DNA from: an uncultured Clostridia bacterium
GTDB lineage: Bacteria > Bacillota > Clostridia > Oscillospirales > Ruminococcaceae
Length of the DNA: 64,000 nt
Assembly (NCBI GenBank): GCA_947600065.1
Contig: CANQFZ010000003.1
Coordinates: forward strand, 62,001 to 126,000
Direction of reading: 5' to 3'
Shown: piece by piece, positions 21,719 to 40,591 of the stretch
How the letters are laid out: every line of letters begins with the position of its first letter
How positions within the stretch are numbered: the first letter of the stretch is position 1
Notes under the pieces: generated by a model
Database searches by the model: none
Seen by the model: the letters and a program-made list of their open reading frames with translations, nothing else
Told to the model about the DNA's origin: nothing
Position numbers and translations under genes: made by a program

Positions 21719-21722
21719 TTTA

Positions 21723-24035: not shown

Positions 24036-24037
24036 AA

Positions 24038-25474
24038 TTACAAATCCTCAATATCTTTTAAGTCATAATAAAACCTAAGCTTATTTATATCCTGTACTAC
24101 CTTATATTCGTCACCAAATTTTTTGTTTTTAATTTCGGCTTTGGCTATCTGATTTTTACCTATCTCAATCGACAGTTCAAACATTTCGTCAATGTATCCT
24201 TTTGCCTTAACAGTCATGACGGCATATCTGTTTCTTCCCGTTGATTCGGTAAAAATAAAATGCGCGTCACGTGCATCTGTTGTCAAAGAGAAAGAAACAG
24301 GCTCGGATCTGTCGCCTACCTTGTTTATATCTTTTTTAAGTACAGGATATGTCTCGCCGTCGCTGAGTAAAATGCAGATGTCGTCCGCAAGCCTGTATTC
24401 GCAGTCAATTGCTGATGTTATCGCTGCTCCTTTTGCTACCATCCATTGATACCTGCCGCCCTCGTCTTCAAATATTATTTTATCTTCATCAAACAGTGAA
24501 AGTATTATATCTGCAAACGGTCTTAATCCGCTCGACCCGCCCGCAAGAATAACTTTGTCGATGTTTTGGGGATTGACGTTTGCTTTTTCCATTATCTTTT
24601 TTATAGCGGGTATAACGTTGTTTTGTATAAGAGGAATGACAATTTCCGAAAAAGTGTCATAATCAATATCGACAGGTCGTGTTTTTGTACCAAAAGTCAT
24701 AGTATAATCATCGGCGGTGGTAAAGTCAATTTTCATTCTCTCGACTTCGTTCATAAGCTTATCTTTATTTGTTGCTTCAAGATCCTCAAAAGATGTATTC
24801 GGATATATTTTCGGAAGCAGCCTTTGCGCAAGTTCTTTATCTATATCATCGCCGCCGAATTTTACACCATAAACAGCGTCCTCAAAAACTTTGTTGCATT
24901 TGAGATTAAGTATGCTTAAATCAAGCGTGCCGCCGCCAAAGTCTATGACCATAACCTTTGAGCATGCTTTTATATCCTTGACTTTCGAAATATATGCGGA
25001 GGAAGATTCGCTTATAAAGCCTTTAACTTTTATGCCTATCTTTTCGGCGGCTTCAAGCAGATCTGTTCTTGCTTTTGCGGAAAAGTCAACGGGGATAGAG
25101 AAAACAGCCTCGGAAAAATCGGATTGATTCACTGTTTGTTTTACATATTTCAGAAATAAAGCCGTAAGTTCTTTTCCGTTATATTTTTCACCATTTACAT
25201 CTATTACTTTGTCTGTTCCGAGCAGTGATTTAAATGATGTGACAATTTCATAGTTGTCAGCATATACGTTTATATTCTCTTTAACCTCGCGCCCAAATTT
25301 AATATCACTATTATTAGTTCTTGATATAGCAATGCAGGAGCTGAACGGCATAAGATCTTTCCCGTCAGTTCCAAATCCTGTTCCTTTAAAACCCAAGCCC
25401 TGTTCGTATTTATACAAATAGACAGAGGTGTTTGTTGTGCCAAAATCAATGCCGAAATATGCTCCGCTTTTCAT
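24038..25474 (-). CDS. Hsp70-like (DnaK-type) ATPase with short C-terminus
   Basis: 478 residues. The actin-like ATPase domain has phosphate-1 DFGTTNTS (9-16), phosphate-2 IDFGGGTLDLS (around 172), and the adenosine motif AGGSSGLRPFADI (around 315). DnaK proteins have about 610-640 residues; here only about 110 follow the ATPase domain, enough for a beta-type substrate domain but without the helical lid. A dedicated, operon-borne Hsp70 of this size is not the housekeeping DnaK. It overlaps the upstream gene by the ATGA tetranucleotide, indicating translational coupling. It may assemble, switch or sense state of the helicase complex; this is inference. Confidence 0.9.
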   Translation of the reverse strand: MKSGAYFGIDFGTTNTSVYLYKYEQGLGFKGTGFGTDGKDLMPFSSCIAISRTNNSDIKFGREVKENINVYADNYEIVTSFKSLLGTDKVIDVNGEKYNGKELTALFLKYVKQTVNQSDFSEAVFSIPVDFSAKARTDLLEAAEKIGIKVKGFISESSSAYISKVKDIKACSKVMVIDFGGGTLDLSILNLKCNKVFEDAVYGVKFGGDDIDKELAQRLLPKIYPNTSFEDLEATNKDKLMNEVERMKIDFTTADDYTMTFGTKTRPVDIDYDTFSEIVIPLIQNNVIPAIKKIMEKANVNPQNIDKVILAGGSSGLRPFADIILSLFDEDKIIFEDEGGRYQWMVAKGAAITSAIDCEYRLADDICILLSDGETYPVLKKDINKVGDRSEPVSFSLTTDARDAHFIFTESTGRNRYAVMTVKAKGYIDEMFELSIEIGKNQIAKAEIKNKKFGDEYKVVQDINKLRFYYDLKDIEDL

Positions 25475-26703
25475 TTGTTATTCCCCTTATAGTCAATTCC
25501 GTTTCTATCAAGCGCTCTGAAAACTTTCTTTATTATCGCCTGTAACGACTCATAATTGATTTCGCTGACATCTGAATTTTCGTATTCAAGCCAATCTTCG
25601 TACAAGAGAGAAAATGCATTTTTCAAATTAAAACGAATTTTTTCAGCCTCAAGAGATGCTTCGCGGCTGTTTATTGCATAAGCGTCTTTCAATTTGTTAT
25701 AAAGCTCTGCGTTATTACTTTCAAGAGCTTCTATCTGCTTTTTTAGATCGTCTTTTTCTGTTTTAACAGTTGCCAAGGATTGATTTGCAGCCTGAAGTTT
25801 TTCTTCCTGCTCGGCTATGATTGCTTTTAATGATACATTCTCTGCGCCTACTAAACGACACTTGTTTATCTCGCCTTGTATCGGTACAATTAAACTTTCG
25901 ACAGCCGCAATAACAGCAGCCCTATCATTTGCTATATCTCCCTTTAAACCGATATACAGCTCTTTTAAAGTCATATCATTCAAGGAGGTTTTATCAGCTT
26001 TTTTATCTGAAACGGAAGCCGGCTTTTCGTCTATAGAAGTTTGGCTGTTCGCGGATTTTTCAGCTGTTTCACTTGCGGTAAAACCTGCAGTTTCAAAGCC
26101 GTATTTTTTTGCCCATTCAGCAATCAATGTCCCGCATTTTGCTTTAGTTATATCCGGGAAAATTTTATTTATGGCATTCCATATATCATTCAAGCCGTTA
26201 TTGTCTACATCTGAATAGTCCGGCATAAAGATCCTGCCTGATGTTTCGTTTATAAGCGAATAGAACATTTTTTTAAATTTTTCCGATTTTACAGCAAACC
26301 CTGCAATAAACGAAACAAGATATGGAAGCTGAGTAGATGTCAATGATTCGTCTTTATAATTATTCATGATTGAAGAAACCGCAAAGGCATACTTCTGGAC
26401 AAAATATTGTGATTTGCTCTTGTTGTTATCGGTTTTTATAAATTCTTTAATAACTTTGTCAAGTAAATCTACTGAAGCGATTTTTGCTTTAGTGATGTTA
26501 TCAAAATAGACTTTAACTACATCTGCCGAAAATCTTGAAAGCTGAACGGCAACTTCGCTCTTTAAATTTTCTTCGCTTATTGTCATCTCAACAAGAAGTC
26601 TTGCAACGTCCCGTGTTTTTTCGTTGTTCAACTGGGACTTATTTTGTTTGTATTCATTATATAACGCGTTCAGCTTTTCCTGTACTTCTTTAAAATTATT
26701 CAT
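25471..26703 (-). CDS. Coiled-coil protein with GrpE-like C-terminus
   Basis: 410 residues from MNNFKEVQEKLN (ATG at 26703 with AAGGAGG 6 bases upstream; the ATG at 26724 precedes this site). The first 190 residues are helical, not recognised. A linker rich in Ser/Ala/Glu follows, then a long coiled coil (about 275-345). The tail (SLLYEDWLEYENSD, SLQAIIKKVFRALDRNGIDY) resembles the end of GrpE helices, where a coiled coil leads to a bundle ending in LxxxGV. GrpE is the nucleotide exchange factor of Hsp70. Since the next gene is an Hsp70, a co-chaperone role is a reasonable inference, not proven. Confidence 0.75.
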   Translation of the reverse strand: MNNFKEVQEKLNALYNEYKQNKSQLNNEKTRDVARLLVEMTISEENLKSEVAVQLSRFSADVVKVYFDNITKAKIASVDLLDKVIKEFIKTDNNKSKSQYFVQKYAFAVSSIMNNYKDESLTSTQLPYLVSFIAGFAVKSEKFKKMFYSLINETSGRIFMPDYSDVDNNGLNDIWNAINKIFPDITKAKCGTLIAEWAKKYGFETAGFTASETAEKSANSQTSIDEKPASVSDKKADKTSLNDMTLKELYIGLKGDIANDRAAVIAAVESLIVPIQGEINKCRLVGAENVSLKAIIAEQEEKLQAANQSLATVKTEKDDLKKQIEALESNNAELYNKLKDAYAINSREASLEAEKIRFNLKNAFSLLYEDWLEYENSDVSEINYESLQAIIKKVFRALDRNGIDYKGNNK

Positions 26704-26720
26704 AAAAATCCTCCTTATAA

Positions 26721-28091
26721 TCAAACAATTGTTATCATATCATCGGGCATTTCGCAATACCCCTTTATCATTTCTACAATGGACTTCAGATCGGATAGGG
26801 AAGTGGCGTTTAATACTTGCAATCCGTTTGACAGCTTATTACAATCTTCCACAGGTACTGCCGTTCTATAAAAAACGTCCTTTTGACGTAATTTAAAAGC
26901 TAGTCCCGCAATACGAGCCATTTTAAACGGTTTGTAATTTATTGAAAACTCGCACACATTTTTTAATGCGTCCGAATAATCGTAGGCTGTTATTACTTTC
27001 CCATTGATTTTAAGAGTTATGCCGTTTGAAATATTATCGTTTAATGCTTTTGTTTCAGCCATTGTTTCAGTCGGCATTTCTGCTTTGCTTTCAATTCCCG
27101 TTTCCAAACCAGTTGGTTCATCATTTGAATTGTCCTCTTCATTTGGTTCTTCTGATATATCTGTGAAATTATTTCTGGTAATATACTCGATTATCATTTG
27201 GCTGCTGTCAATAGAACAAAGTTCAAGCAAACGCTTTACATGCTTAATTAAATCGGGAGCATTTAGGTTTCCTTCAGCAAAAAAATCAGATGTTATTCTT
27301 ACTCCTCTGCGAAGCCTATGAGCAAGGGTTTTATTTGCAAAGTCTATCCGATGTCCATATAGCGATTTGCCGATCAAGTTTTTTAAAATGTCTACATAGT
27401 TATTGTCGTTGTAAAGCAAACCAAGAAATTTAGCATATAAATCAGTCCAGTTTGCGACAGTATACTTCCTATTGTAAAATGAGAATGAAAGCGGTTTTGA
27501 TTTTATATAAATATAGGGCGTATCAAAATTTATTGTCTTTACATCATCATATTTCGTTAAGTGCTGCGAAGGACTGTGAGATGTTTTTGATTTGTGTTCA
27601 GACTGTGCTGTTATATTGACAAAGCTATTGACAGCATCATACAAAGATCTTAAAAGATCAGAATATTGACGAAACTTCTTTCTTCTCTTCTGAACTCTGC
27701 TGTACTCTTCTCCGTCATCAATGTCAAATAATTCATTGTATTCTCTTTGGATATTTATTAGCGCAGAATTTACTCTTTTGTTCAAATCATCAAGATGCCT
27801 ATATAATTCATCATTTGTCAAAAGAGTGTATTCTTCGGAATTTGGTTCAATGTTATGACTTTCAATTATCTCGCCGCAGCAAGTGTGTATTTTTTGTATT
27901 AAACGAACCTTGTTCAATACCGATAATAATTCTTGTACATCAACCGTTTCGGAGGAAAGAAATTTAAGATACTCTTTTTTTCCTTTTTTATAGTCATTTA
28001 CTATATTCTGAATAAAATCAAGAATACCATTTTCAACTTCTGCCTCGTTACTTTCATTTAATTCGGAGATGATTTTAAAATCGTCGTTCAC
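26721..28091 (-). CDS. First gene of the DrmAB-Hsp70 operon, unknown
   Basis: 456 residues from GTG at 28091, which has AAAGG 9 bases upstream. The frame is also open from TTG at 28130, but the predicted transcription start is at about 28128, so that codon would not be translated normally. The N-terminal 170 residues are helical and charged. The middle part (LSFSFYNRKYTVANWTDLYA, then ELCSIDSSQMIIEY) resembles a small wedge domain seen at the ends of restriction-type proteins, but I cannot name the family. An acidic, low-complexity linker separates a second small domain. It may be the target-recognition or adaptor subunit; this is a guess from position. Confidence 0.72.
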   Translation of the reverse strand: MNDDFKIISELNESNEAEVENGILDFIQNIVNDYKKGKKEYLKFLSSETVDVQELLSVLNKVRLIQKIHTCCGEIIESHNIEPNSEEYTLLTNDELYRHLDDLNKRVNSALINIQREYNELFDIDDGEEYSRVQKRRKKFRQYSDLLRSLYDAVNSFVNITAQSEHKSKTSHSPSQHLTKYDDVKTINFDTPYIYIKSKPLSFSFYNRKYTVANWTDLYAKFLGLLYNDNNYVDILKNLIGKSLYGHRIDFANKTLAHRLRRGVRITSDFFAEGNLNAPDLIKHVKRLLELCSIDSSQMIIEYITRNNFTDISEEPNEEDNSNDEPTGLETGIESKAEMPTETMAETKALNDNISNGITLKINGKVITAYDYSDALKNVCEFSINYKPFKMARIAGLAFKLRQKDVFYRTAVPVEDCNKLSNGLQVLNATSLSDLKSIVEMIKGYCEMPDDMITIV

Positions 28092-28135
28092 ATAATCAAA
28101 CCTTTCAGAATTATATTTGTTAAATTGCAATTATC

Positions 28136-28164
28136 ATTATAACATATTTTTACTAAAATAGCAA
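28136..28164 (-). promoter_or_regulatory. Promoter of the DrmAB-Hsp70 operon
   Basis: On the minus strand TTGCTA (28164-28159), 17 bp, then TATAAT (28141-28136). Transcription would begin at about 28128, placing the GTG start at 28091 behind a leader of about 37 bases with AAAGG. Confidence 0.82.
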
Positions 28165-28243
28165 TATTTCGAATTAAAATTCTTTGAGCATTTTATATAC
28201 CCCCTAATCAAGCACAAGTCGTAAAATGAGACTGAGTCAAATA

Positions 28244-28274
28244 TTCAGCATCTAACTTCTTAATCTTCAGCATC
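28244..28274. repeat. Direct repeats upstream of a promoter
   Basis: TTCAGCATCT occurs at 28244-28253 and 28265-28274, 21 bp apart (two helical turns), ending 10 bp before a -35 box. This is the geometry of an activator or repressor binding pair. Confidence 0.5.
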
Positions 28275-28284
28275 TGGTCAGGTA

Positions 28285-28313
28285 TTGACAAAGCTCCCAT
28301 GATTTGTTATAAT
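28285..28313 (+). promoter_or_regulatory. Consensus promoter, upstream of the pair
   Basis: TTGACA (28285-28290), 17 bp, TATAAT (28308-28313): a perfect consensus directing rightward transcription from about 28320. Confidence 0.85.
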
Positions 28314-28319
28314 ATCAAC

Positions 28320-28386
28320 AAGTAAGATGGTAGTGCTTAGCACAATGCTCAAAACGTTCCGCGTGCTTATTCGGAACTTTTCTTTT
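28320..28386 (+). ncRNA. Candidate short RNA between promoter and terminator
   Basis: From the consensus promoter at 28285-28313 the transcript would meet GTTCCG (28356-28361) pairing with CGGAAC (28372-28377), followed by TTTTCTTTTTT. That predicts an RNA of roughly 65 nt. It contains no credible ORF. It could be a free small RNA or an attenuating leader of the exonuclease-RecQ gene. Length and existence are predicted only. Confidence 0.45.
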
Positions 28387-28389
28387 TTA

Positions 28390-28418
28390 TTGACATCAAG
28401 GCGTAAAGTTGTTATAAC
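28390..28418 (+). promoter_or_regulatory. Promoter of the exonuclease-RecQ operon
   Basis: TTGACA (28390-28395), 17 bp, TATAAC (28413-28418), starting transcription about 10 bases before the ATG at 28435. Together with the hairpin just upstream this argues that the in-frame ATG at 28327 is not the start. Confidence 0.75.
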
Positions 28419-28434
28419 ATCGGGCGGTGAATAT

Positions 28435-31400
28435 ATGAAGCATATCTTCTTTATTGATACCGAAGTCAGCGAAACCGATCATAAAGCGTGTGATTTCGGT
28501 GCAGTAAATGAAAATGACAATAAACTGCATACGAGTTCGGGTCGGGAATTTCACGACTTTATTGCAGATGCAGAATATCTCTGCGGTCATAATATCATTG
28601 ATCATGACGCGCAATATATCAAAATAACCGAAAACGCAAATTTTATCGACACTTTATATCTGTCACCGCTGATGTTCCCTAATAAACCATACCACAGACT
28701 TTTAAAAGATGATAAGCTCCGGACGGACGAACTTAATAATCCGTTAAATGATGCAATAAAGACAAAAGAACTTTTCTATGATGAAGTCAATGCTTTTTTA
28801 GAGCTTAATGTTAAAACTAAACTCATCTACTATATGCTCTTGAAAAACAGCAATTACTTTTCGGGATTTTTTGATTATCTGGGATTTTTTGCAGACAGCG
28901 ATGTCAAAGCGGCAATTAGGCTTCAATTTGCAGGGAAAATATGTGAAAATGCGCCGCTCGATGATGTCATTAACAGCTCGCCGATAGAGCTTGCATACTG
29001 CCTTGCGTTGATTTCTGCAACTGAAGAACATTCTCTGATACCGAAGTGGGTGCAGGTCAATTATCCGAATACAGAAGTGGTTATGCGAGAGCTTCGAGGC
29101 ACTTCCTGCCATAAATGCGAATATTGCAAATCAATGCTTGAACCTGTCGCCTATCTTGGCAAATATTTCGGTTATAACAGCTTTCGCAGATACAACGGCG
29201 AGCCTTTACAGGAAAATGCAGTCAAAGCGGCTGTGGAACATAATTCTCTGCTTGCTATATTCCCAACCGGCGGCGGTAAATCATTGACTTTTCAGATACC
29301 TGCGCTTATGGCGGGGGAAACAGAACGTGCGCTGACTGTCGTTATTTCTCCGTTACAGTCGCTTATGAAAGACCAGGTCGATAATCTTGAAAAGCGCGGT
29401 ATTGCAGAAGCTGTCACTATAAACGGTCTTCTCAGTCCTATTGAGAGAGCAGAGGCAATAGAGCGCGTTGAATCGGGCATTGCTTCCATTCTCTATATTT
29501 CTCCCGAATTGCTTCGATCTGTTACTATTGAGCGGCTTTTATTGTCGCGTCATATTGACCGTTTCGTCATTGATGAAGCGCATTGTTTTTCGGCGTGGGG
29601 TCAGGATTTTCGTGTGGACTATCTTTATATAGGCGATTTTATCCGTGAATTGCAGGAAAAGAAAGGGTGCAGGATACCTGTTTCTTGCTTTACTGCAACC
29701 GCAAAGCAAAAGGTCATCAGCGATATTAAAGATTATTTTAAGGACAAACTCGGGCTTGAGCTTCTGTTGTTTGCAACATCTGCAACGCGCACTAATCTTC
29801 GATATGAAGTGCTTTATAAAGAAACCGACGACGAAAAATATGAAGCTCTCCGTTGCCTTATCGAGGAGAAAAACTGCCCTACTATCGTCTATGTTTCAAG
29901 GACAAAAAGGACGAGTGAACTTGCGGATAAACTTTGCTGCGACGGTTTTAAAGCAAGACCTTTCAATGGTAAAATGGACAGCAGCGAGAAACAGGAAAAT
30001 CAAGAGGCTTTTATAAATGATGAGGTTCAGATAATAGTTGCAACATCGGCTTTCGGTATGGGCGTTGATAAATCCAACGTTAAATTGGTCGTGCATTACG
30101 ATATTTCGGATTCGCTTGAAAACTATGTTCAAGAGGCAGGCCGCGCGGGACGTGATGAGAATTTACAGGCGGAATGTTATGTGCTGTTCAATGACAATGA
30201 TCTGGACAAACATTTCATCCTTCTTAATCAGAGCAAACTCAGTATCAGTGAGATACAGCAGGTCTGGAAAGCTATAAAAGACTTTACTCACACACGTTCG
30301 GATGTGTGCTGCTCGGCGCTTGAAATAGCCAGACAGGCAGGCTGGGACGACAGCGTTTCCGAAATCGAAACAAGGGTAAAAACAGCGCTGCAGGCTCTTG
30401 AAAATGCAGGGTATATAAAGCGCGGGAAGAATGTTCCCCGAGTATATGCAGACGGTATACTTGCAAAGAGTACAATTGAGGCAAACAAGAAAATCGATGT
30501 TTCTACCAAATTTAATGACGATAAGGAAAGAACCGCGGCTAAGCGTATCATAAGCAAACTTATCTCAAAAAGGAGTATTTCAAAAGCGGGAAACGACGAT
30601 GCGGAATCAAGAGTAGACTACCTTGCGGATATACTCGGCATTGAAAAATCGGACATTATACGTTACATTCAGATAATGCGCGAGGACGGTTTGCTTGCAG
30701 ACAGCAAAGACTTGACTGCATATATACAGAAAACTGATACCGTCAATAAGTCTATGATCGTTCTTCACCGCTTTCAAACCCTTGAAACCTTTCTGCTCGG
30801 GGATATTGAGAATATAGAAGCTGACAAGTTATGCTTGAACTATAAGGAACTGAATGAAGCGGCTCTTGAACGAGGAATAAGAAACAGTTCGGTAAGATCC
30901 ATAAAGACATTGTTTTATTATTGGACGATACGTAACTATATTAAAAAAGAGCAGTATCAGACTACGGATAAAGTTATCATTATACCGAAAATGACTATTG
31001 AGCAAATTAAGAAAAATCGTCGGAACAGTTATGCTGTTTCAGAGTTTATTATAAACTATCTGTTTGAGATAAGCGGCGGAGATATAAATTGTAAAGATGA
31101 AGCGCTCGTGGAATTTTCGATACTGGAATTGATAAACAAATACCGTGAACAATTCTTGACGGATATAAACGAACAGGATATAGAAGAAGCACTGTTGTTT
31201 CTCTCCAAGATCGGGGCATTGAAGCTGGAAGGCGGCTTTCTTGTGCTTTACAGCGGTATGCGTATAAAGCGGCTGATACTTGACAATAAAAGGCGCTATA
31301 AGGTGGAGGATTACAAACAGCTTAATGAATTTTATCAGCAGAAAATACAGCAGATACATATCGTAGGCGAATTTGCGAATATGATGGTACGCGACTATAA

Positions 31401-33204
31401 TCAGGCTTTGCAATTTGTAGACGATTATTTCAGAATGGATCATAAGAAATTCCTGTCGAAGTATTTCTCCGGCGAAAGATCCGCCGAGATACAACGAAAT
31501 ATCACGCCCGAAAAATACCGAAAACTGTTTGGCACCCTATCGGAAAGACAGCTTGAAATTATCCGTGACGATACTTCAAAATATATTGTTGTCACCGCAG
31601 GACCGGGCAGTGGCAAAACGAGAGTACTTGTGCATAAGCTGGCGTCGCTTTTAATGCTTGAAGACGTGAAGCATGAACAGCTTCTGATGCTTACATTCTC
31701 CCGCGCCGCCGCGATAGAGTTCAAACAGCGTTTGTGCGGACTGATAGGGAAAGCAGCAAACTTTATAGAGATAAAGACGTTTCATTCATACTGCTTTGAT
31801 TTGCTTGGAAAGATTGGCAATTTACGCGAATCGGAGAATATTGTTAAAGACGCAGGCAAGCTGATAAGAAGCGGGGAAGTCGACTTAGGCAGGATCACAA
31901 AATCGGTCCTTGTCATAGATGAAGCGCAAGATATGGACAATCATGAATACAGTCTTGTAGAAGCGCTTATGGAAAGAAACGAGGATATGCGTGTAATTGC
32001 CGTAGGAGATGACGACCAGAATATCTATAAATTTCGCGGCTCCGACTCAAAATATCTGAGAAAGTTTATAACCGAACATGAAGCCAAGCGGTATTCTTTG
32101 ATAGACAATTATAGAAGCTGTAAAAGTGTCATAAGATTTGCAGATGAGTTTGTAAGATCAATTTCCGACAGAATGAAATCGGAGGATATTATCGCTGTTT
32201 CGGATAATATTGGCGAAGTCGGTCTTGTAAAGCATAGCTGTGTAAATATGGAAACGGCGTTGGTCGAAGATATGCTGCAAACTTCCGCTAAGGGCGACAC
32301 TTGTATACTTACAAGCACCAACAATGAAGCCTTGCTTTTACTTGGTATCCTGAAGCAGAGAAATATCCCCGCAAAACTTATTCAGTCCATTGACGGATTT
32401 GATCTTTACGATATTGCAGAAATACGCTATTTCCTTAAAATGCTGGATAAGAATTCCTCTCCTATTATCGACAATGATCGGTGGAACAGTGCGGTAAAAG
32501 CATTACAGGAGAAATACAGCGAAAGCGACTGCCTACCCATAATTATGAATATTATAAATGTATTTGAGGAAGTCAACGAGAAAAAATATCGTACCGATTT
32601 TGAAATGTTCCTGCACGAATCAAAAGTAGAGGATTTTTATACGTATGAACAGGGCGTTGTTACTATCTCAACAATGCATAAGTCAAAGGGCAGAGAGTTC
32701 GACAATGTTTATATGCTTATAGGTAATGTAGATATGAGAAGCGACGAGGAAAAAAGAAAGCTCTATGTCGGTATGACAAGAGCAAAAAATGTACTACATA
32801 TTCACTATTACGGCAATACTTTCGACAAATATTCCGAATATGCAAACTTTAAGGTTGACGCATTTGATTATCCCAAACCATCTGAACTTATATTGCAGCT
32901 TTCACACAAAGATGTATATCTAAACTTTTTCAAGGATAAAAAAGCATTGATATTACAGTTGAAAAGCGGTATGCATCTTACTGTTACAGGCAACAGGCTG
33001 CATGCAAAGGTAAACGGAAAATCCGTTCCTATTTTGCAATTTTCAGCCGATTGCAATGAAAATGTTAAACAACTCATATCATCGGGATATAAGCCTTATG
33101 ATGCAGTGATACGTTTTATCTGTGCATGGAAAGGGAAAGAGGATACCACAGAATCGGCGGTCATTTTGGCAGATGTTTATTTTCATACAAGTACAAATCA
33201 ATAA
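28435..33204 (+). CDS. DEDD exonuclease-RecQ-UvrD triple-fusion helicase
   Basis: 1589 residues from MKHIFFIDTEVSE (GGGCGGTG ribosome site). Residues 1-170 look like a DEDD 3'-5' exonuclease: FIDTE (the DxE pair), CGHNIIDHDAQYI. From about 250 a RecQ helicase follows: PTGGGKS near 280, VIDEAHCFSAWGQDFR, SAFGMGVDKSNVKLVVHYD, QEAGRAGRD. A helical/winged region links to a UvrD-type helicase from about 1030: AGPGSGKTRVL near 1056, VLVIDEAQDMDN, VGDDDQNIYKFRGSD, TMHKSKGREFDNVYML, VGMTRAKNVLHIHYY. All motors look intact. It would unwind and degrade DNA. It heads an operon with an RNase H-like and an ImmA/IrrE gene, divergent from the DrmAB-Hsp70 operon. Confidence 0.9.
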   Translation: MKHIFFIDTEVSETDHKACDFGAVNENDNKLHTSSGREFHDFIADAEYLCGHNIIDHDAQYIKITENANFIDTLYLSPLMFPNKPYHRLLKDDKLRTDELNNPLNDAIKTKELFYDEVNAFLELNVKTKLIYYMLLKNSNYFSGFFDYLGFFADSDVKAAIRLQFAGKICENAPLDDVINSSPIELAYCLALISATEEHSLIPKWVQVNYPNTEVVMRELRGTSCHKCEYCKSMLEPVAYLGKYFGYNSFRRYNGEPLQENAVKAAVEHNSLLAIFPTGGGKSLTFQIPALMAGETERALTVVISPLQSLMKDQVDNLEKRGIAEAVTINGLLSPIERAEAIERVESGIASILYISPELLRSVTIERLLLSRHIDRFVIDEAHCFSAWGQDFRVDYLYIGDFIRELQEKKGCRIPVSCFTATAKQKVISDIKDYFKDKLGLELLLFATSATRTNLRYEVLYKETDDEKYEALRCLIEEKNCPTIVYVSRTKRTSELADKLCCDGFKARPFNGKMDSSEKQENQEAFINDEVQIIVATSAFGMGVDKSNVKLVVHYDISDSLENYVQEAGRAGRDENLQAECYVLFNDNDLDKHFILLNQSKLSISEIQQVWKAIKDFTHTRSDVCCSALEIARQAGWDDSVSEIETRVKTALQALENAGYIKRGKNVPRVYADGILAKSTIEANKKIDVSTKFNDDKERTAAKRIISKLISKRSISKAGNDDAESRVDYLADILGIEKSDIIRYIQIMREDGLLADSKDLTAYIQKTDTVNKSMIVLHRFQTLETFLLGDIENIEADKLCLNYKELNEAALERGIRNSSVRSIKTLFYYWTIRNYIKKEQYQTTDKVIIIPKMTIEQIKKNRRNSYAVSEFIINYLFEISGGDINCKDEALVEFSILELINKYREQFLTDINEQDIEEALLFLSKIGALKLEGGFLVLYSGMRIKRLILDNKRRYKVEDYKQLNEFYQQKIQQIHIVGEFANMMVRDYNQALQFVDDYFRMDHKKFLSKYFSGERSAEIQRNITPEKYRKLFGTLSERQLEIIRDDTSKYIVVTAGPGSGKTRVLVHKLASLLMLEDVKHEQLLMLTFSRAAAIEFKQRLCGLIGKAANFIEIKTFHSYCFDLLGKIGNLRESENIVKDAGKLIRSGEVDLGRITKSVLVIDEAQDMDNHEYSLVEALMERNEDMRVIAVGDDDQNIYKFRGSDSKYLRKFITEHEAKRYSLIDNYRSCKSVIRFADEFVRSISDRMKSEDIIAVSDNIGEVGLVKHSCVNMETALVEDMLQTSAKGDTCILTSTNNEALLLLGILKQRNIPAKLIQSIDGFDLYDIAEIRYFLKMLDKNSSPIIDNDRWNSAVKALQEKYSESDCLPIIMNIINVFEEVNEKKYRTDFEMFLHESKVEDFYTYEQGVVTISTMHKSKGREFDNVYMLIGNVDMRSDEEKRKLYVGMTRAKNVLHIHYYGNTFDKYSEYANFKVDAFDYPKPSELILQLSHKDVYLNFFKDKKALILQLKSGMHLTVTGNRLHAKVNGKSVPILQFSADCNENVKQLISSGYKPYDAVIRFICAWKGKEDTTESAVILADVYFHTSTNQ

Positions 33205-33238
33205 ACGGTTATTGAGAATATAAGTTTGGAGGATAAAT

Positions 33239-34219
33239 ATGGAAAATGAAATAAGTTATTTAGAGCATGCTAAAATGTACATAGATTGCCTTGCAAACGG
33301 CATTGACCCTGTGTCGAATTTGCCTGTTAATGCCGATACGCTCCGCAATGAACAGGTTATAGCATGTTTTGAATATATTTCAGATGTTCTTGAAAGAGAT
33401 ATTTGTAATATTGAATACGATAAGGATAAGAAGAACGATTTTTTCATAACCGACGAGCAATTTGCCGAGCTGAATATCTATGAAAACAACCGCAAGGTAA
33501 GCGAAATTGCAGATGAGATAAATCGTGTTACACAAGTAAATAAAACGAGAAAAATGTCGGCGGTATGGATAAACAATTGGCTTGAAGCAGAGGGGTATCT
33601 ATGTAAAAGCGATTTAAATGGTCGTATCTCAACCGAAAAAGGCAAGCATATCGGCATAACTACCGAGCGTCGAAAAGCGAAAGACGGAAATGAATATTAT
33701 ACTAACCTTTACTCACCGCAGACGCAAAAATTTATATTTGAACATCTTAATGAAATAATTGCTTTTAGAAATGAGCATTCAGATAATGCGGAAGAAAAAA
33801 TAGAAAACATTGATTTTCCTTATGAGCTTTCAATTAAAGAATTTATACAACGGCAGCCCGATAAATGCTTTATACTGTCCGTCGGCAGTTGTGATACGCT
33901 TGCAAAACGCGGAAGCTATACGGCGGTATTGCTTTTCAAAGGTAAAAGTAAGATACTGAAGAAGTCGGACATTCCGACTAACTCTTCAAACAAATGCATA
34001 CTGACAGGTATCCTTGACGCGGTATCAGCCATCAAAATGCCTACGGATATTGTCATTCTTACCTCGACTCCTCTGGGCTTTAATACGCCTAAAAGCATAA
34101 ATTATAGTATTTGTGAGGAAATATTTCGTATACTCGAAGAGAAAAATTGTACTTTTTCCATAGCTGTATGCCAAGGCAAAGGATCAGAGCTGAATGACTT
34201 TATTCAATCACTTGAATGA
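33239..34219 (+). CDS. Helicase-associated protein with RNase H-like C-terminus
   Basis: 326 residues. The N-terminal half has the conserved opening YLEHAKMYIDCLANGIDP...IACFEYISDVLE and a winged-helix-like part (KMSAVWINNWLEAEGYL). I recognise this pattern from proteins near RecQ-type genes, but it has no firm name. The C-terminal 120 residues (FILSVGSCDTLAKRGSYTAVLLF, then ILTGILDAVSAIKMPTDIVI, KNCTFSIAVCQGK) alternate beta strands and helices like an RNase H fold. I cannot identify a full acidic catalytic set, so it may be inactive. The gene follows by 34 bp with TTGGAGG and overlaps the ImmA-like gene by ATGA. Confidence 0.7.
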   Translation: MENEISYLEHAKMYIDCLANGIDPVSNLPVNADTLRNEQVIACFEYISDVLERDICNIEYDKDKKNDFFITDEQFAELNIYENNRKVSEIADEINRVTQVNKTRKMSAVWINNWLEAEGYLCKSDLNGRISTEKGKHIGITTERRKAKDGNEYYTNLYSPQTQKFIFEHLNEIIAFRNEHSDNAEEKIENIDFPYELSIKEFIQRQPDKCFILSVGSCDTLAKRGSYTAVLLFKGKSKILKKSDIPTNSSNKCILTGILDAVSAIKMPTDIVILTSTPLGFNTPKSINYSICEEIFRILEEKNCTFSIAVCQGKGSELNDFIQSLE

Positions 34220-34635
34220 ATTTAGTAGTTGAGAATACAAATTATGAAATTGTTGATGACAATGATATGCCAGCAAATTTCTTTGCACAATGTTACCAGA
34301 AACCTGAAGGCGGTTTTGTGATACAAATCAAGGAAACGGTATATAATGGTGCTTGTTATAATAACAACTATGCTTTTCGTTGTTTTATCTGTCATGAGAT
34401 CTGCCATGTAATGCTTTTTTGGCTCGACTTTACACCTATATCAGCCCGGTCATTTGGAGATACAGAAATCGAACCGTTCAGAAGTGTTGAGTGGCAGGCA
34501 AAGGCATTGACAGGAGAAGTCATGATTCCCTATGAGGCTTAAAAAGGATTGACATCAGAGGAAATAATCGAAAAATATCATGTTACAAAAAAATCAGCAG
34601 AATACAGAGTAAAGCAGGATATAAAGAATAAGTAA
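34216..34635 (+). pseudogene. ImmA/IrrE metalloprotease with an internal stop
   Basis: The frame starts inside the previous stop (ATGA overlap) and encodes an ImmA/IrrE-type protease: zinc motif HEICH near residue 60 and SVEWQAKALTGEVMIPYEA, the usual helix after it. A TAA at 34540-34542 interrupts the frame, which then continues without shift (KGLTSEEIIEKYHVTKKSAEYRV) to TAA at 34633. That tail is the standard ImmA ending, so a single nonsense change is likely. The truncated 108-residue product keeps HExxH and might still act. ImmA proteases cleave phage-type repressors; the target here is not evident. Confidence 0.8.
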
Positions 34636-34689: not shown

Positions 34690-34765
34690 AAAACGCATTG
34701 ACAAGTTGCCGCTAACAACAAATCAATGCGCTTTGGGAAGTTATGAGTATGCTCATAACTACTAC
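34690..34765 (-). ncRNA. Candidate small RNA with two hairpins
   Basis: Leftward from the consensus promoter at 34772-34801 the transcript folds as hairpin GTTATGAG/CTCATAAC (34740-34747 with 34752-34759), then a larger stem TCAATGCG partner pair CGCATTGA (34723-34730 with 34694-34701), directly followed by TTTTCC on the minus strand, like an intrinsic terminator. The predicted RNA is about 75 nt with no ORF. In DNA the flanks TTGACAAAGGAAA (34680-34692) and TTTCCTTTGTCAA (34789-34801) also form a 13-bp inverted repeat, so the whole block could fold as a three-way junction. Confidence 0.5.
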
Positions 34766-34771
34766 GGGTTT

Positions 34772-34801
34772 ATTATATCATAGCTTCCTTTCCTTTGTCA
34801 A
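34772..34801 (-). promoter_or_regulatory. Consensus promoter for leftward small RNA
   Basis: On the minus strand TTGACA (34801-34796), 18 bp, TATAAT (34777-34772). No protein gene lies downstream within the next 130 bp in this direction. Confidence 0.7.
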
Positions 34802-34830
34802 TCGGCAAATTATACAAATATTATTTGATT

Positions 34831-34845
34831 GCCGGTTTAGCCGGC
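34831..34845 (+). other. GC hairpin just before the DUF4417 ribosome site
   Basis: GCCGG (34831-34835), loop TTTAG, CCGGC (34841-34845), ending 3 bases before AAAGGAG of the DUF4417 gene. It may affect translation. Confidence 0.5.
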
Positions 34846-34859
34846 AGAAAGGAGAAGCT

Positions 34860-35483
34860 ATGACTTCTTTAGACATGAGAGAAAGCCATCTCTTTATGAG
34901 AAACGGCTTTGATGTTACGGGCAAGTGGGATATTCCTATCGTAAAGAAGCAGGAATTTCCTCTTGATAATGTGCGTCTTATCGCATATTCTGACACAAGG
35001 CAGAATGACAGACCGGAGAATACCGCTTGCGGAGTGCATTTCTTTATTGACGATTATCGTTTTACGGGCATTTACAACAATCCTGAGAGAAGCATTGAGA
35101 AGCTCTCACAGTATGCTTTCCTGCTTACACCTGATTACTCTACTTATTCAGATATGAATTATTGGAGACAACTTGAAAGTGTTGCACATAGTCATTGGGT
35201 AGGAGCATATTGGCAGAGTAGGGGCTTGAAAGTAGTTCCGACTATGACATGGAGCGACAGCAGAAGTTACTCTTTTTGTAATGACGGAGTCGAAAAGGGG
35301 AGTATTGTTGCTGTAGGCATGATTGGCTGCAAACGGTCGAAGAATGAATTTCTGCGCGGATATAATAATATGCTTGAAATAATTGAACCGTCCGCGATAA
35401 TTGTTTTTGGTTCACCGTTTTCTGAAATGGACGGTAACATCATAGCTGTAGACTATCGCAGTTCAAGAAAGGTGGTGCGTTGA
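34860..35483 (+). CDS. DUF4417-like protein
   Basis: 207 residues from MTSLDMRESHLFMRNGFD; AAAGGAG stands 7 bases before this ATG, whereas the in-frame ATG at 34743 has none. Features typical of DUF4417 proteins of phages and mobile elements are FDVTGKWDIPIVKKQEFPLD, GVHFFIDDYRFTGIYNNPER and IVFGSPFSEMDGNI. The biochemical role of the family is not established. It overlaps in TGATATG with the MGGRG-type gene that follows, the usual partner. The last 25 codons are duplicated downstream at 36247-36318. Confidence 0.75.
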   Translation: MTSLDMRESHLFMRNGFDVTGKWDIPIVKKQEFPLDNVRLIAYSDTRQNDRPENTACGVHFFIDDYRFTGIYNNPERSIEKLSQYAFLLTPDYSTYSDMNYWRQLESVAHSHWVGAYWQSRGLKVVPTMTWSDSRSYSFCNDGVEKGSIVAVGMIGCKRSKNEFLRGYNNMLEIIEPSAIIVFGSPFSEMDGNIIAVDYRSSRKVVR

Positions 35484-35484
35484 T

Positions 35485-35868
35485 ATGGGCGGTAGAGGAA
35501 CTTATGCAGCCGGGAATAATGTTCCCTATACTTATGAAACTGTAGGATATGTTGAAGATGCAAAGGTCTTATTCGGAAAACCCGGAACAGGCTTACACGA
35601 TTTACCCGTTGAAGCACATTCAAGCAATGTATATGTTAAGTTGCATAAGGACGGTACATTAAATATGATGAGGATATATGATGAGCATTATCTCACAGCG
35701 GAGATAGCTTATCACCCTGAGCCGGATTTAACAGGAAATCGTAAACCGGTACTGCATATTCACTACTATGATCGCAGCCTCATGCGAACTGATGCAGCTT
35801 ATTTAGACTATGAGACCTTTAAAAAGTATGAAAAATATCTTGTAGGAAGGAAGTGGTATAATGATTGA
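35485..35868 (+). CDS. MGGRG-type small protein, copy 1
   Basis: 127 residues, beginning MGGRGTYAAGNN, a signature of proteins that accompany DUF4417 genes on phages and integrated elements. A segment VLHIHYYDRS and a terminal KYEKYLVGRKWYND are also conserved in the second copy at 36320. No enzyme motif can be assigned. It overlaps the stop of the DUF4417 gene and the start of the next small gene, implying one coupled transcription unit. Confidence 0.7.
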   Translation: MGGRGTYAAGNNVPYTYETVGYVEDAKVLFGKPGTGLHDLPVEAHSSNVYVKLHKDGTLNMMRIYDEHYLTAEIAYHPEPDLTGNRKPVLHIHYYDRSLMRTDAAYLDYETFKKYEKYLVGRKWYND

Positions 35869-36151
35869 CGGAAATGCAAGAGATTTCATTGAAAAACTTC
35901 ATTATGAAGATCATTATGTGATTTACAATGGTAATAAATATTTCTTTAATGGTTGTCAGACCAAAGCATCATCTGACGGAACAGTAGAATACGTAAGTCT
36001 CGAAGTATATAATCTTACAACAGATGAAACGATCTTTTCAATAAAAAAACCTTTTTCTTCTGAATGTGTTCGTGCTTTAGAAGAAGCACCAATCTGGGGT
36101 GGAAAAACGTTTTGGGAAATCGAAAATGAAATGCAATGGGTTGATGAATAA
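35861..36151 (+). CDS. Small protein, tiny-paralogue family (1)
   Basis: 96 residues, overlapping the MGGRG gene by 8 bases. It shares a pattern with 36748-37026, 37054-37347 and 38354-38599: an N-terminal helix (NARDFIEKLHYED), then YNGNKYFFNG and a WEIENEMQWVDE tail. Function unknown. Its closest relative is the gene at 37054 (KSFYEVEIMMKWVDG tail). Confidence 0.65.
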   Translation: MIDGNARDFIEKLHYEDHYVIYNGNKYFFNGCQTKASSDGTVEYVSLEVYNLTTDETIFSIKKPFSSECVRALEEAPIWGGKTFWEIENEMQWVDE

Positions 36152-36318
36152 TGACAGGCAAAAATATAAGTGAGTTTATTTTAGACCTTTATTATAATTC
36201 TGAAATAGAGTTTACCTATGAACAGAGTGCTGTTATCTGTTTTGGTGAACCTTTCAAAGAAATGGGCGGTAACATCATAGCTGTAGACTATCGCAGTTCA
36301 AGAAAGGTGGTGCGCTGA
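36151..36318 (+). other. Chimeric 55-codon ORF
   Basis: An in-frame ORF joins the start of the tiny-paralogue family (MTGKNISEFILDLYYN) to the end of the DUF4417 protein (EMGGNIIAVDYRSSRKVVR). The junction is at about 36220-36245. The 3' part repeats bases 35409-35483 almost exactly and is followed in the same TGATATG register by the second MGGRG gene. It is a recombination scar of a duplication; whether a peptide is made is unknown. Confidence 0.75.
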
Positions 36319-36319
36319 T

Positions 36320-36751
36320 ATGGGCGGCAGAGGTGCATATACAGAAGGTAAACAGAAAAAATATGTTTATAGCACTGTTGGTGAAATTGAAGGTGTAAAA
36401 GTATTAGAACCTGTCAATGATAAAGCAAGTCATAGTATGCCGGCTGAAGCACATTCTTCAAGAGCATACATAGTGCTTGACAAGGAAAACGGAGTGTTCA
36501 GGCAGTATAGAGAGTTTAATGAGGGACATCTTTCTACTCTTGAAATAGGTTATCATTTTGAAAGCGGTCTTTCTGAGAATGGTAAAAATGTATTTCATAT
36601 TCACGAATACTCACAGCCGGGCATTGAACATCGTCAGAAGGGCAGGCTAATGACACCGGAGGAGATACAGAAGTACAGGAAGTATTTCAAAGGTGTTTCA
36701 GAGTCACAAATCAATGACTATCTTGATTATTACAGGAGGCGAAACAAATGA
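36320..36751 (+). CDS. MGGRG-type small protein, copy 2
   Basis: 143 residues, MGGRGAYTEGKQKKYVYSTV start, with the same layout as copy 1: VKVLEPVND against AKVLFGKPG, LPVEAHSS against MPAEAHSS, and FHIHEYSQ against LHIHYYDR. It is longer at the C-terminus (MTPEEIQKYRKYFKGVSESQ). It arose with the chimeric ORF before it as part of a tandem duplication. Function unknown. Confidence 0.7.
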   Translation: MGGRGAYTEGKQKKYVYSTVGEIEGVKVLEPVNDKASHSMPAEAHSSRAYIVLDKENGVFRQYREFNEGHLSTLEIGYHFESGLSENGKNVFHIHEYSQPGIEHRQKGRLMTPEEIQKYRKYFKGVSESQINDYLDYYRRRNK

Positions 36752-37026
36752 CAGGCAGAACTATAAGGGAGTTTATTACAGAACTGTATAACAATCCTGA
36801 AATGGAATTTATCTATCACAGCAACCGTTACATGATTTCGGGCTATATTAGTCCTTCCGGCGGTATATATACTTTGGAACTTTGGAATATAACGACGAAC
36901 AGCCTTGTGTTTAAATGTTCAGACAAACTTCGTGAGAATTGCGTAGAGCAGTTTGAGAATTCAATGCTGTTTGATAACAGAACGATTTATGAAGCGGAGG
37001 ACGAGATAAATGTCCAGTACGGCTAA
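36748..37026 (+). CDS. Small protein, tiny-paralogue family (2)
   Basis: 92 residues, coupled to the previous gene by ATGA overlap. The N-terminus TGRTIREFITELYNNPEMEF is the intact version of the sequences truncated at 36151 and 37347. Then YHSNRYMISGY and an acidic tail follow. Function unknown. Confidence 0.65.
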   Translation: MTGRTIREFITELYNNPEMEFIYHSNRYMISGYISPSGGIYTLELWNITTNSLVFKCSDKLRENCVEQFENSMLFDNRTIYEAEDEINVQYG

Positions 37027-37053
37027 AAAGAAATACTTTGGAGGTGTTACAAG

Positions 37054-37347
37054 ATGGAAGCCGGAAATGTAAAAGAATTTGTAAATAATCTAAACATTCA
37101 GGACGAAATGGTGAGATATGACGGTCATCTTTATTATTTCTACGGTATCAGATATGATAGTGACAGAAATGTATATTATACGAGCATAGATCAATTCGGC
37201 ATTGATATTTATCATTTTGAAAAAGAGTTTTACTATTATGAAAGCTCAGACTCGTCGGATTGTCTTGAACATCTTTTATCAGATAATTATTGGAACGGAA
37301 AAAGCTTTTATGAAGTTGAAATAATGATGAAATGGGTTGACGGATAA
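37054..37347 (+). CDS. Small protein, tiny-paralogue family (3)
   Basis: 97 residues with a strong GGAGGTG site 7-8 bases before ATG. NVKEFVNNLNIQDEMVRYDG and the tail MMKWVDG match the gene at 35861. Rich in Tyr, Asp and Ser; likely soluble. Function unknown. Confidence 0.65.
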   Translation: MEAGNVKEFVNNLNIQDEMVRYDGHLYYFYGIRYDSDRNVYYTSIDQFGIDIYHFEKEFYYYESSDSSDCLEHLLSDNYWNGKSFYEVEIMMKWVDG

Positions 37348-37508
37348 TGACAGGCAAAAGTATAAGTGATTTTATTTCAGACCTTTAATATAATTTTGAA
37401 ATAGAGTTTACCTATCACAATGAACGCTATATAATCTCCTGATATGTAGGTAAACGAGATTTGGTTTATTACGGACAAGTCAAGTATCTTGAAAAGAGAT
37501 TAAAATGA
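37347..37508 (+). pseudogene. Decayed tiny-paralogue gene
   Basis: From ATG at 37347 the frame reads MTGKSISDFISDL, TAA, YNFEIEFTYHNERYIIS, TGA, YVGKRDLVYYGQ and stops at 37506. Two in-frame stops break an otherwise recognisable member of the family of 36748. Confidence 0.75.
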
Positions 37509-37891
37509 AAAAATTAAGAGAAATGAACAAAGAAATATTCAGGAATAACCTTATTGCAACTCTCAATGAGTTTTCTTATACAGCAACTCCTAAATTTAAA
37601 ATAACACCGGTATACGATCCTAATAAACTTCCAAGTGGTGATGATGATTATTTTCGTTTAGTCATTCTTGGCAAAGACAATATTGGCAGAAAGATTCTTT
37701 CACTTAATGATACTGTTGAAGTTCTTTCTTGCTGTTCTCCTTATGTCCCAACACAAATCAAGGTTTTATATCACGGAGATAAAGATGGGATATCATTGTT
37801 TGAGCTCTTAACGAGTACTCGTATCAGAAAGCCTTCACAACTTGCAAATATTGAGACGGGTCATCCGCCGTTTAAGGCGATTTTTGGATAA
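37505..37891 (+). CDS. Hypothetical protein
   Basis: 128 residues, not recognised. Basic N-terminus (MKKLREMNKEIFRNN), central beta-like segments (DDYFRLVILGKDNIGRKILS, PTQIKVLYHG), and a PPFKAIF tail. It lacks a strong ribosome site and overlaps the pseudogene stop, so translation may depend on upstream genes. It ends 7 bp before the terminator-promoter module. Confidence 0.55.
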   Translation: MKKLREMNKEIFRNNLIATLNEFSYTATPKFKITPVYDPNKLPSGDDDYFRLVILGKDNIGRKILSLNDTVEVLSCCSPYVPTQIKVLYHGDKDGISLFELLTSTRIRKPSQLANIETGHPPFKAIFG

Positions 37892-37897
37892 AACAAT

Positions 37898-38009
37898 AGC
37901 GGTCAACCCTCGCAGGCTGACCGCTTATTTTACTTGACAATCCCTCTAATGGATGGTATAATTAGTTTTAAGAAAGATGACTTTAGAAATTCAATTGGAG
38001 AAACAAGAA
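37898..38009 (+). promoter_or_regulatory. Terminator-promoter-leader module, copy 1
   Basis: AGCGGTCA (37898-37905) pairs with TGACCGCT (37918-37925), then a T-rich run, TTGACA (37934-37939), 17 bp, TATAATTAG (37957), and a leader ending AATTCAATTGGAGAAACAAG before ATG at 38010. The terminator of one gene and the promoter of the next are fused in about 110 bp. The same module recurs at 39127. Confidence 0.85.
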
Positions 38010-38351
38010 ATGACAAAGAAACTTGTTTATATCGCTATGTATCGCGCCCTCGATTGTTTGTTTGATGAAACTCAAAGAGAAGATTTGGGAAAATATCTTA
38101 GTGAAGCCAATCCTTATTCTTTCACTGACCGCATGTCTGCTGACCCCGCTGTCTTTGACGGATTCAACAATTTTTTTGACAGTTTATATTCCAATGATAT
38201 AACTGTTGAAGAAAGTTATAACTTCGTTAGAAAGTATCTTATTTCTGAACACTTGTCTTATTATGGGTCTTTTGCTCCGATTTTTGATGATATCAGTTTG
38301 GAAGAATGGACAAAGTTGTGCGGTATAGTCGCAGATGAGGAGGCTGAGTAA
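38010..38351 (+). CDS. Small acidic protein, cassette gene 1
   Basis: 113 residues from MTKKLVYIAMYRALD. The in-frame ATG at 37977 lies in a leader that is conserved, without start codon, in module copy 2, so the ATG after TTGGAGAAA is preferred. Helical and acidic (SLEEWTKLCGIVADEEAE). Size and charge recall immunity proteins of toxin systems, but no family is recognised. Confidence 0.65.
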   Translation: MTKKLVYIAMYRALDCLFDETQREDLGKYLSEANPYSFTDRMSADPAVFDGFNNFFDSLYSNDITVEESYNFVRKYLISEHLSYYGSFAPIFDDISLEEWTKLCGIVADEEAE

Positions 38352-38353
38352 AA

Positions 38354-38599
38354 ATGAGAATTTCAGAGTTTATTACTTTGGTTGATGAGGGACACGAGAT
38401 TGAATTCGTTTATGAAGGCAGAAAGTATTCTGTTACATACGGCGAAGTCAATGGAAAGGAAGTAATTTCATTTTGCGAATTCTATAAGGATAGCGTTGAG
38501 GTTGAAACGGTTGATGAATTGCTTGATGTTGTTTATGACAATAAAAAAGTATCTGATATGATTGAAATGCTGACGGAAAATGACGTGTGGGTATTCTGA
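38354..38599 (+). CDS. Small protein, tiny-paralogue family (4)
   Basis: 81 residues, 2 bp after the previous stop. MRISEFITLVDEGHEIEFVY and EGRKYSVTYGE follow the tiny-paralogue pattern. A strongly acidic tail ends in WVF. Function unknown; co-transcribed with cassette gene 1. Confidence 0.65.
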   Translation: MRISEFITLVDEGHEIEFVYEGRKYSVTYGEVNGKEVISFCEFYKDSVEVETVDELLDVVYDNKKVSDMIEMLTENDVWVF

Positions 38600-38665
38600 G
38601 TAACTGCCCAATAGCTCGCAGATGAGCAAGGAAAAGGCTCTATTACTATTTAGGAGGAATCGAAA

Positions 38666-39121
38666 ATGAACAGCATTATTGGAGATATTGTCCCTTTTGA
38701 GGGATATGGTGAGTTTGTTCTCTACCAAAGCATAAATGAGGCTAAAACTGTAATCAAAAATCACAAAATCAAATACACATCAGAAGTATGGGAAAACAAC
38801 GAATGCACTGATCCTGTTCCGTGGACGATTATAAGAACAGATGATAATATCCACTTGTTTTTCGCAAAGGATAAATTATTCAAGATTTATTTTAGCGACG
38901 GATGCGATGCCAAACTTTCCAATGGTATTTCAATCGGTATGAAAATTGATGAAGCTCTAGAAATTGATCCTGATCTTGAATATGATGATTGGGAAGAAGA
39001 TTATCAGTCTCCGCAGGGATACTGGCTTGAAGATGATCTTGATAATGGTACTGTAATGTCAATTAGTATCTTTATCAAAGAAGCATTGGACGAAGAACTC
39101 TTTGAAAAATACAATTGGTAG
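38666..39121 (+). CDS. Small acidic protein, immunity-like
   Basis: 151 residues with an excellent TAGGAGGAATCG site. It is very acidic near the C-terminus (DDWEEDYQSPQGYWLEDDLD). The strand-rich central part (WTIIRTDDNIHLFFAKDKLF) and acidity resemble polymorphic-toxin immunity proteins in general. No toxin gene is seen nearby and I cannot name a family. Confidence 0.65.
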   Translation: MNSIIGDIVPFEGYGEFVLYQSINEAKTVIKNHKIKYTSEVWENNECTDPVPWTIIRTDDNIHLFFAKDKLFKIYFSDGCDAKLSNGISIGMKIDEALEIDPDLEYDDWEEDYQSPQGYWLEDDLDNGTVMSISIFIKEALDEELFEKYNW

Positions 39122-39126
39122 TAAAA

Positions 39127-39234
39127 AGCGGTCAACTCTCGCAGGCTGACCGCTTTTTGCTTGACAAACCCACAACGAGGTGGTATAATTAGGTTCAAGA
39201 AAGATAACATTAGAAACTCAATTGGAGAAAAAAT
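39127..39234 (+). promoter_or_regulatory. Terminator-promoter-leader module, copy 2
   Basis: AGCGGTCA (39127-39134) pairs with TGACCGCT (39147-39154), then TTTTT, TTGACA (39161-39166), 17 bp, TATAATTAGG (39184), and the leader AACTCAATTGGAGAAAAAAT before ATG at 39235. It closely matches copy 1 along its whole length. Confidence 0.85.
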
Positions 39235-39513
39235 ATGATTAACCCACATGAAACTAAAGCTTTTGATTTGCTTTATAACTTTGTTCACGAGCATTTCGAT
39301 GGAGTATATCAATTAGCATTTAAAAATGGTGCTGAAATAACAGCAGAGTATGATACGGATTACGAAACTGACAATGGACTTGAATTTGAAGAAGACGGTT
39401 ACGAGGAATATATTACGATTATTTTTAAAAACATCGCTGACAACACGCTGTTTGAAGTAAACTGTTTTAATTTCCCCGATAAGGTGCTTTATAACGGCGA
39501 ACAAATAATTTGA
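39235..39513 (+). CDS. Small acidic protein, cassette gene 2
   Basis: 92 residues (MINPHETKAFDLLYNFVHEH). Acidic central part (DTDYETDNGLEFEEDGYEEY) and a hydrophobic C-terminal strand. Expressed from its own module promoter. Function unknown; immunity-like by size and charge only. Confidence 0.65.
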   Translation: MINPHETKAFDLLYNFVHEHFDGVYQLAFKNGAEITAEYDTDYETDNGLEFEEDGYEEYITIIFKNIADNTLFEVNCFNFPDKVLYNGEQII

Positions 39514-40207: not shown

Positions 40208-40212
40208 ATGTT

Positions 40213-40587: not shown

Positions 40588-40591
40588 TAAA

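Follow-up and report, generated by a model that had tools for sequence, protein, structure and literature searches.

Is a bacterial protein that carries an exonuclease and two helicase motors of different superfamilies a machine in its own right, or one component of a larger system encoded by the genes around it? A locus in a 64,000-nucleotide stretch of DNA from an uncultured Clostridia bacterium of the Ruminococcaceae raises this question. We analysed the whole stretch, hereafter called the window. An initial annotation had joined the gene to an RNase H-like protein and an ImmA/IrrE protease downstream, and had proposed that this set and a divergent DrmAB operon form a defence island or compound system.

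Results

One open frame encodes an exonuclease and two helicase motors

The open frame extends over 28327-33204 of the plus strand (1625 codons). Because homologues align from M37, at base 28435 (20-member alignment), we set the start of the gene there, in agreement with the initial annotation, which gives a protein of 1589 aa (28435-33204, plus strand) in the order exonuclease, RecQ, putative winged helix, UvrD. A sigma-70-like promoter, matching the consensus at 12 of 12 bases and identified by that match only, lies upstream (28285-28313, plus strand). The proposal that one protein combines an exonuclease with RecQ and UvrD motors is borne out by profiles and predicted fold. The RecQ core (29155-30291, plus strand; residues 241-619; TIGR00614, E 1.1e-83) exceeds the subfamily cut-off (281.6 against 219.8 bits) and falls well below that of the housekeeping RecQ equivalog TIGR01389 (321.3 against 640.2 bits). 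The UvrD/PcrA-type core (31534-32919, plus strand; about residues 1034-1495) likewise belongs to the UvrD/Rep group, with PF00580 at 124.3 bits and PF13361 at 73.6 bits, both above cut-off, and does not reach the PcrA equivalog TIGR01073 (124 against 911.2 bits).

Between the motors is a linker (30232-31569, plus strand; residues 600-1045) whose AlphaFold2 model (pLDDT 83.2, pTM 0.48) contains repeating units of helix and strand. Foldseek returned only weak matches to this model, many of them winged-helix proteins, and no confident single fold match; we infer that the linker may consist of several winged helices.

The architecture is kept over its full length in the 20-member alignment, and the median length across 109 sequences is 1595 aa. 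This set comprises 101 loci, after removal of one duplicate (L073, a copy of L042, which is still present in a second set of 110 rows), together with the window and seven distant plasmid copies; L063 is counted only as the plasmid copy Acib, and L142 is truncated by the end of its contig. In five loci of both sets (L082, L088, L124, L131 and L144), the matched stretch contains a single stop. The catalytic residues of both motors, namely the RecQ Lys and first DEAH Asp and the UvrD Lys and first motif II Asp, are retained in 109 of 109 sequences. In the 110-row set, RecQ K282 is retained in all 110 rows and the DEAH box is intact except for one E-to-K replacement.

The exonuclease keeps its acidic residues and lacks the DEDDh histidine

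No model in Pfam, NCBIfam or PADLOC matches the first 240 residues, and the assignment of this region (28435-29169, plus strand; residues 1-245) as a DEDD-fold exonuclease with a helix bundle comes from predicted fold and residue counts. An AlphaFold2 model built from residues 1-245 of the window protein and 68 relatives has a mean pLDDT of 91.6. Its best fold match is S. aureus DinG (Z 12.9 over 221 residues, VIA-align), and this match spans the whole modelled stretch, past the nuclease proper. A DNA polymerase entry, ExoX, DnaQ domains and Pol III epsilon follow (Foldseek and VIA-align); the WRN exonuclease is not among the matches listed in the VIA-align comparison, and its absence from that listing says nothing against it. 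Because the predicted fold groups the domain with DEDD exonucleases, and four acidic residues (D8, E10, D58 and D106) are in place, the initial DEDD call is correct at this level. D8, E10 and D58 are conserved in 108 of 109 sequences, with a gap in the remaining one, and D106 in all 109.

The call does not extend to the DEDDh subtype. Residue 101, which occupies the DEDDh His position, is Asn in 103 sequences, Ser in 6 and His in none of the 109. A profile of the domain aligns N101 to the catalytic His of a TREX-type exonuclease; because this match is weak (E 0.079), our placement relies on fold and on motif spacing, which is N-x-P-x-x-D in the fusion, compared with the H-x-A-x-x-D pattern of DEDDh motif III. 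Since the acidic metal ligands are invariant and a His never appears, the Asn/Ser site looks like a selected variant and not random decay. Loss of the His could nevertheless leave the exonuclease weak or dead.

The downstream genes do not track the fusion

The fusion is followed after 34 bp by a gene for a 326-aa protein (33239-34219, plus strand), which in turn overlaps an ImmA/IrrE-like frame (34216-34635, plus strand) by 4 bp. The 326-aa protein consists of a small N-terminal domain of about 180 residues, known in related clostridia, and a degenerate C-terminal RNase H-like domain in the last 130 residues (33821-34219). The similarity to RNase HI is weak (E 0.001 in one profile search, 0.023 in another), and V, I and S occupy the positions of catalytic residues D10, E48 and D70, so RNase H activity is unlikely, judging from these replacements. 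The ImmA/IrrE protease of the initial annotation fares similarly: an HEICH motif with a downstream E can be read by eye within 34216-34542, and the frame has no profile match and is interrupted at codon 109 by a TAA (34540-34542). Thirty more codons run on past this stop to 34635, which the initial annotation took as the end of the locus. Either a pseudogene or an assembly error could explain the interruption. A DUF4417 protein (34743-35483; PF14386, E 7.7e-51) is encoded downstream of it.

Coupling of these two genes to the fusion is not conserved. The small N-terminal domain was found in 14 of the 197 genomes searched in the window's family, only 2 of which have the fusion; it adjoins the fusion at L043, L050, L076, L090 and L103 and is otherwise found mostly away from it. 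At ten other loci of the small domain that we inspected, there was no RNase H-like or ImmA-like partner. Neither gene tracks the fusion elsewhere, and we therefore reject the RNase H-like/ImmA operon as a conserved unit.

The fusion and the DrmAB operon share a variable block

To the left of the fusion, an operon on the minus strand (16767-28130) encodes DrmB (NF038324, 452 bits against a cut-off of 240), a DrmA-like protein (NF038325, 903 bits against a cut-off of 950), a UvrD-like protein, an Hsp70-like protein and two unknown proteins. This six-gene operon is rare in the family, judging from DrmA (1 of 197 genomes). A gap of 304 bp (28131-28434) separates the divergent operons. The idea of a shared back-to-back promoter region holds for the divergent layout; each side has its own promoter-like site, the leftward one (28136-28164, minus strand) agreeing with the consensus at 10 of 12 bases and, like its counterpart, identified by consensus match only.

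Both the fusion and the Drm operon lie within a 24.5-kb block (16659-41186) that is absent from the close relative G587, which has 118 bp in its place: a 7263-base alignment to G587 (96.1% identity) ends at 41187 of the window, and after these 118 bases the match resumes at 16658. A second close relative, G094, carries different genes at this site, and the site is therefore variable. Beside the block, the window retains a 138-aa remnant of an M48-type peptidase (15852-16268; named by eye), which is whole in G587 at 582 aa. Repeated small-gene cassettes occupy 35384-40625, with a terminator-like hairpin in three copies (37895, 39124 and 40591), a promoter-like stretch duplicated at 37928 and 39155, and paralogous MGGRG-type proteins (35485-35868 and 36320-36751). 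Farther away is the gene for an HTH-AAA_28-CYTH protein (12337-13647); of the 11 genus genomes searched at E 1e-60, only the window's own contains a match.

The initial annotation was right to place the fusion next to a DrmAB operon, and both are part of a variable block; its compound-system reading finds no support. Among the 197 family genomes, DrmA was matched in 1, the window's own, against 8 for the fusion, so the seven other fusion genomes are without DrmA, and by co-occurrence the fusion does not belong to a DISARM-type DrmAB system. Near 30 other fusions, none of the window's Drm-operon proteins was found, except that the UvrD-like protein matched the fusions' own UvrD part. Because of the discrepancy in family counts, we do not regard the divergent operons as a unit, and together with the 30 neighbourhoods it leads us to reject a compound system with DrmAB.

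The fusion is widespread, patchy and present on plasmids

At E <= 1e-120, and with the window's own genome included in both counts, the fusion was matched in 8 of the 197 genomes searched in the family and in 24 of the 391 searched in the class. Among 11 genus mates, a relative was found in one, G584, where it lies in two pieces on separate contigs; eight others have RecQ-length frames only, of about 600 aa, and two have no match. The window's own genome also encodes a separate RecQ-type frame of 605 aa. Beyond the class, relatives that agree with it in length and domain order extend to Bacillota, Bacteroidota, Campylobacterota, Pseudomonadota, Cyanobacteriota and others. A scan of named genomes with an alignment of the family confirmed at least 581 relatives, and the best 80 of these were taken on: 59 are from Bacteroidota, 18 from Bacillota and one each from three other phyla (by NCBI titles), most at about 51-58% identity.

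Plasmids carry the gene as well, with 23 matching records that range from Bacteroides to Aliarcobacter, Thiothrix, Rhizobium and Nostoc; on 7 of the 23, a single place gives coverage of at least 80%. Of ten plasmid regions inspected, eight contain one large gene annotated as a RecQ family ATP-dependent DNA helicase, and two (Croceicoccus and Phocaeicola) are unannotated at the fusion's place. No relatives were found in phages, nor in viral contigs with a single-protein query suited to close relatives, and a phage origin of the fusion is unsupported.

A FastTree gene tree of 84 rows intermixes families and orders within Bacteroidota; Desulfospira and a bin of Lentisphaerota also fall within the Bacteroidota, and one Opitutales bin groups with the Bacillota. 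On this tree, five phylum labels require 7 changes against a minimum of 4, an excess of a kind that by itself is no proof of transfer, and contamination of metagenome bins can also yield mixed trees. Taken together, however, the mixed tree, the patchiness and the plasmid copies make horizontal transfer of the gene likely.

Neighbourhoods reveal no conserved partner

Across 100 loci, covered for up to 10 kb on each side (1343 proteins), no gene is a conserved partner of the fusion. One locus, L074, was left out of this set as a suspected duplicate, although it is in fact distinct. The largest neighbour cluster, of proteins with response-regulator domains, reaches 11 of the 100 loci, followed by ABC transporter-type ATPases at 8 and McrB-like proteins at 7 (all named by eye). 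At two loci from Bacteroidales bins (L079 and L081), a RecQ-type gene encoding 680-682 aa lies 6-7 bases upstream of the fusion.

At 79 named loci, the nearest genes, classified by eye, are mostly housekeeping-looking or of no recognised kind. About 10 of the 79 have a restriction- or toxin-like nearest neighbour, a figure based on selection by eye without a matched control; by profile, these ten are three McrC (PF10117), two AAA_5, one HsdR and one each of a helicase with PLD and DUF3427, HNH, AbiEii and DUF6088. The initial annotation had named core-genome contexts without defence genes as the setting that would speak against its reading. Such contexts are largely what we see, with these loci as a minority of exceptions.

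PADLOC profiles matched 105 families among the nearest neighbours (126 of 137 proteins), with at most 3 members each, and 46 families in 20 arbitrary regions of fusion-bearing contigs (126 of 154 proteins), none of the 25 families listed having more than 2 members. This comparison counts families and not matching proteins, and its two sets differ in taxonomy, the first drawn from named loci, mostly Bacteroidota, and the second from genomes of the window's class and family; for these reasons we claim no enrichment of defence genes.

Discussion

Characterised RecQ and UvrD/PcrA motors are known to translocate 3' to 5' along single-stranded DNA. Because the two motors share this polarity, the fusion would most likely load on a 3' single-stranded tail, gap or fork. 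The RecQ motor could then open the duplex, while the UvrD motor would pull the same strand or strip protein from it and the exonuclease would shorten the 3' end thus exposed. Branched DNA that is abnormal or foreign would be the fusion's probable substrate. Two motors of one polarity speak against a RecBCD-like two-strand machine and point to work on one strand or to hand-over between the motors.

On balance, we favour a horizontally mobile, stand-alone DNA-processing enzyme, a reading that we consider somewhat probable, and the RNase H-like gene, the ImmA-like gene and the DrmAB operon are local neighbours of the fusion, not its subunits. A three-gene operon whose RNase H-like and ImmA-like products assist the fusion is suggested by the short spacing and by the five loci at which the small N-terminal domain adjoins a fusion; it is made very unlikely by the absence of this domain beside the other fusions examined, by the small overlap in family genomes, by the lost RNase H site and interrupted ImmA-like frame, and by the lack of such partners at the ten other loci. 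More improbable still is a compound defence system built from the two divergent operons, which would account for their placement across a 304-bp gap in one variable block and does not accord with the rarity of DrmA among fusion genomes or with the 30 neighbourhoods, in which the only resemblance to the Drm operon was UvrD to UvrD.

Within the stand-alone reading, what the enzyme does is more evenly balanced, as repair and defence fit about equally. It could be an accessory genome-maintenance enzyme, akin to the WRN- or ExoDinG-like repair helicase-nucleases, that acts in damage tolerance and has no anti-phage or anti-plasmid role. The housekeeping surroundings and the high sequence conservation, as expected of a repair enzyme, favour this possibility, and the nearest solved exonuclease, that of DinG, is reported to be active in S. 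aureus (PMC11981726, in the available text). The fusion's patchy presence, apparent transfer, coexistence with an ordinary RecQ and plasmid copies sit less comfortably with repair, which we hold to be a realistic possibility that falls short of probable. The same mobility, patchiness and plasmid copies, together with restriction- or toxin-like nearest neighbours at 10 of 79 named loci and McrB-like proteins within 10 kb at 7 of 100, favour a single-gene defence system against phage or plasmid DNA. Neither PADLOC nor NCBIfam holds a full-length model for the fusion, however, and the ten neighbours were selected by eye without a matched control, with most loci showing none; defence, too, is an option that we take seriously without expecting it to prevail.

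Several known proteins share parts of this architecture. Like the Werner protein WRN, the fusion has an exonuclease followed by RecQ, and its RecQ core matches that of WRN. The WRN exonuclease is of the DEDDy type, and to our knowledge WRN has no UvrD domain. DpdF, PsyrT and other RecQ-like defence proteins in PADLOC also share the RecQ core, but the match is confined to that part (for DpdF, NF041063, 212.3 bits against a cut-off of 550). A 2014 survey of the RNase H-like superfamily described, as cluster F.14, RecQ helicases with an RNase H-like exonuclease domain (PMC3985635). By this description, the cluster resembles the fusion in having the exonuclease domain together with RecQ; in the available text of the survey, however, UvrD occurs nowhere and a missing His is not mentioned (PMC3985635). 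Exonuclease-helicase fusions of the ExoDinG type have also been described already, and S. aureus DinG is reported to be an active ssDNA and ssRNA exonuclease (PMC11981726, in the available text). The S. aureus and B. subtilis DinG proteins share with the fusion an N-terminal DEDD exonuclease and helix bundle placed on an SF2 helicase (Z 12.9 for S. aureus DinG), but their SF2 helicase is a different one, and they are not known to carry a UvrD motor. Their exonuclease site is of the DEDDh type, with its His (PMC11981726, in the available text). The combination of exonuclease and RecQ is therefore already known in print. For the triple fusion and the Asn/Ser site we found no description, and for the term DEDDn no use, in the literature searched, which lay outside subscription papers and most preprints.

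More broadly, these proteins might be mobile one-gene enzymes of immunity or fork processing that make up a large family not recognised so far, spread over many phyla and often plasmid-borne, in which two motors of the same polarity feed a DEDD exonuclease with a new type of active site (Asn or Ser in place of His), although in this specific form we regard the idea as doubtful. If active, the fusion would combine a nuclease with motors from two superfamilies in a single polypeptide, one under strong selection over many phyla for which our searches nevertheless turned up no function, and its Asn/Ser site would represent a type of DEDD exonuclease whose activity is directly testable. The fusion and its DrmAB neighbour offer a clean example of genes that are adjacent within a variable block without forming one system. 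The fusion itself belongs to a family that is widespread and uncharacterised; its members are usually stand-alone genes and are likely to pass between bacteria.
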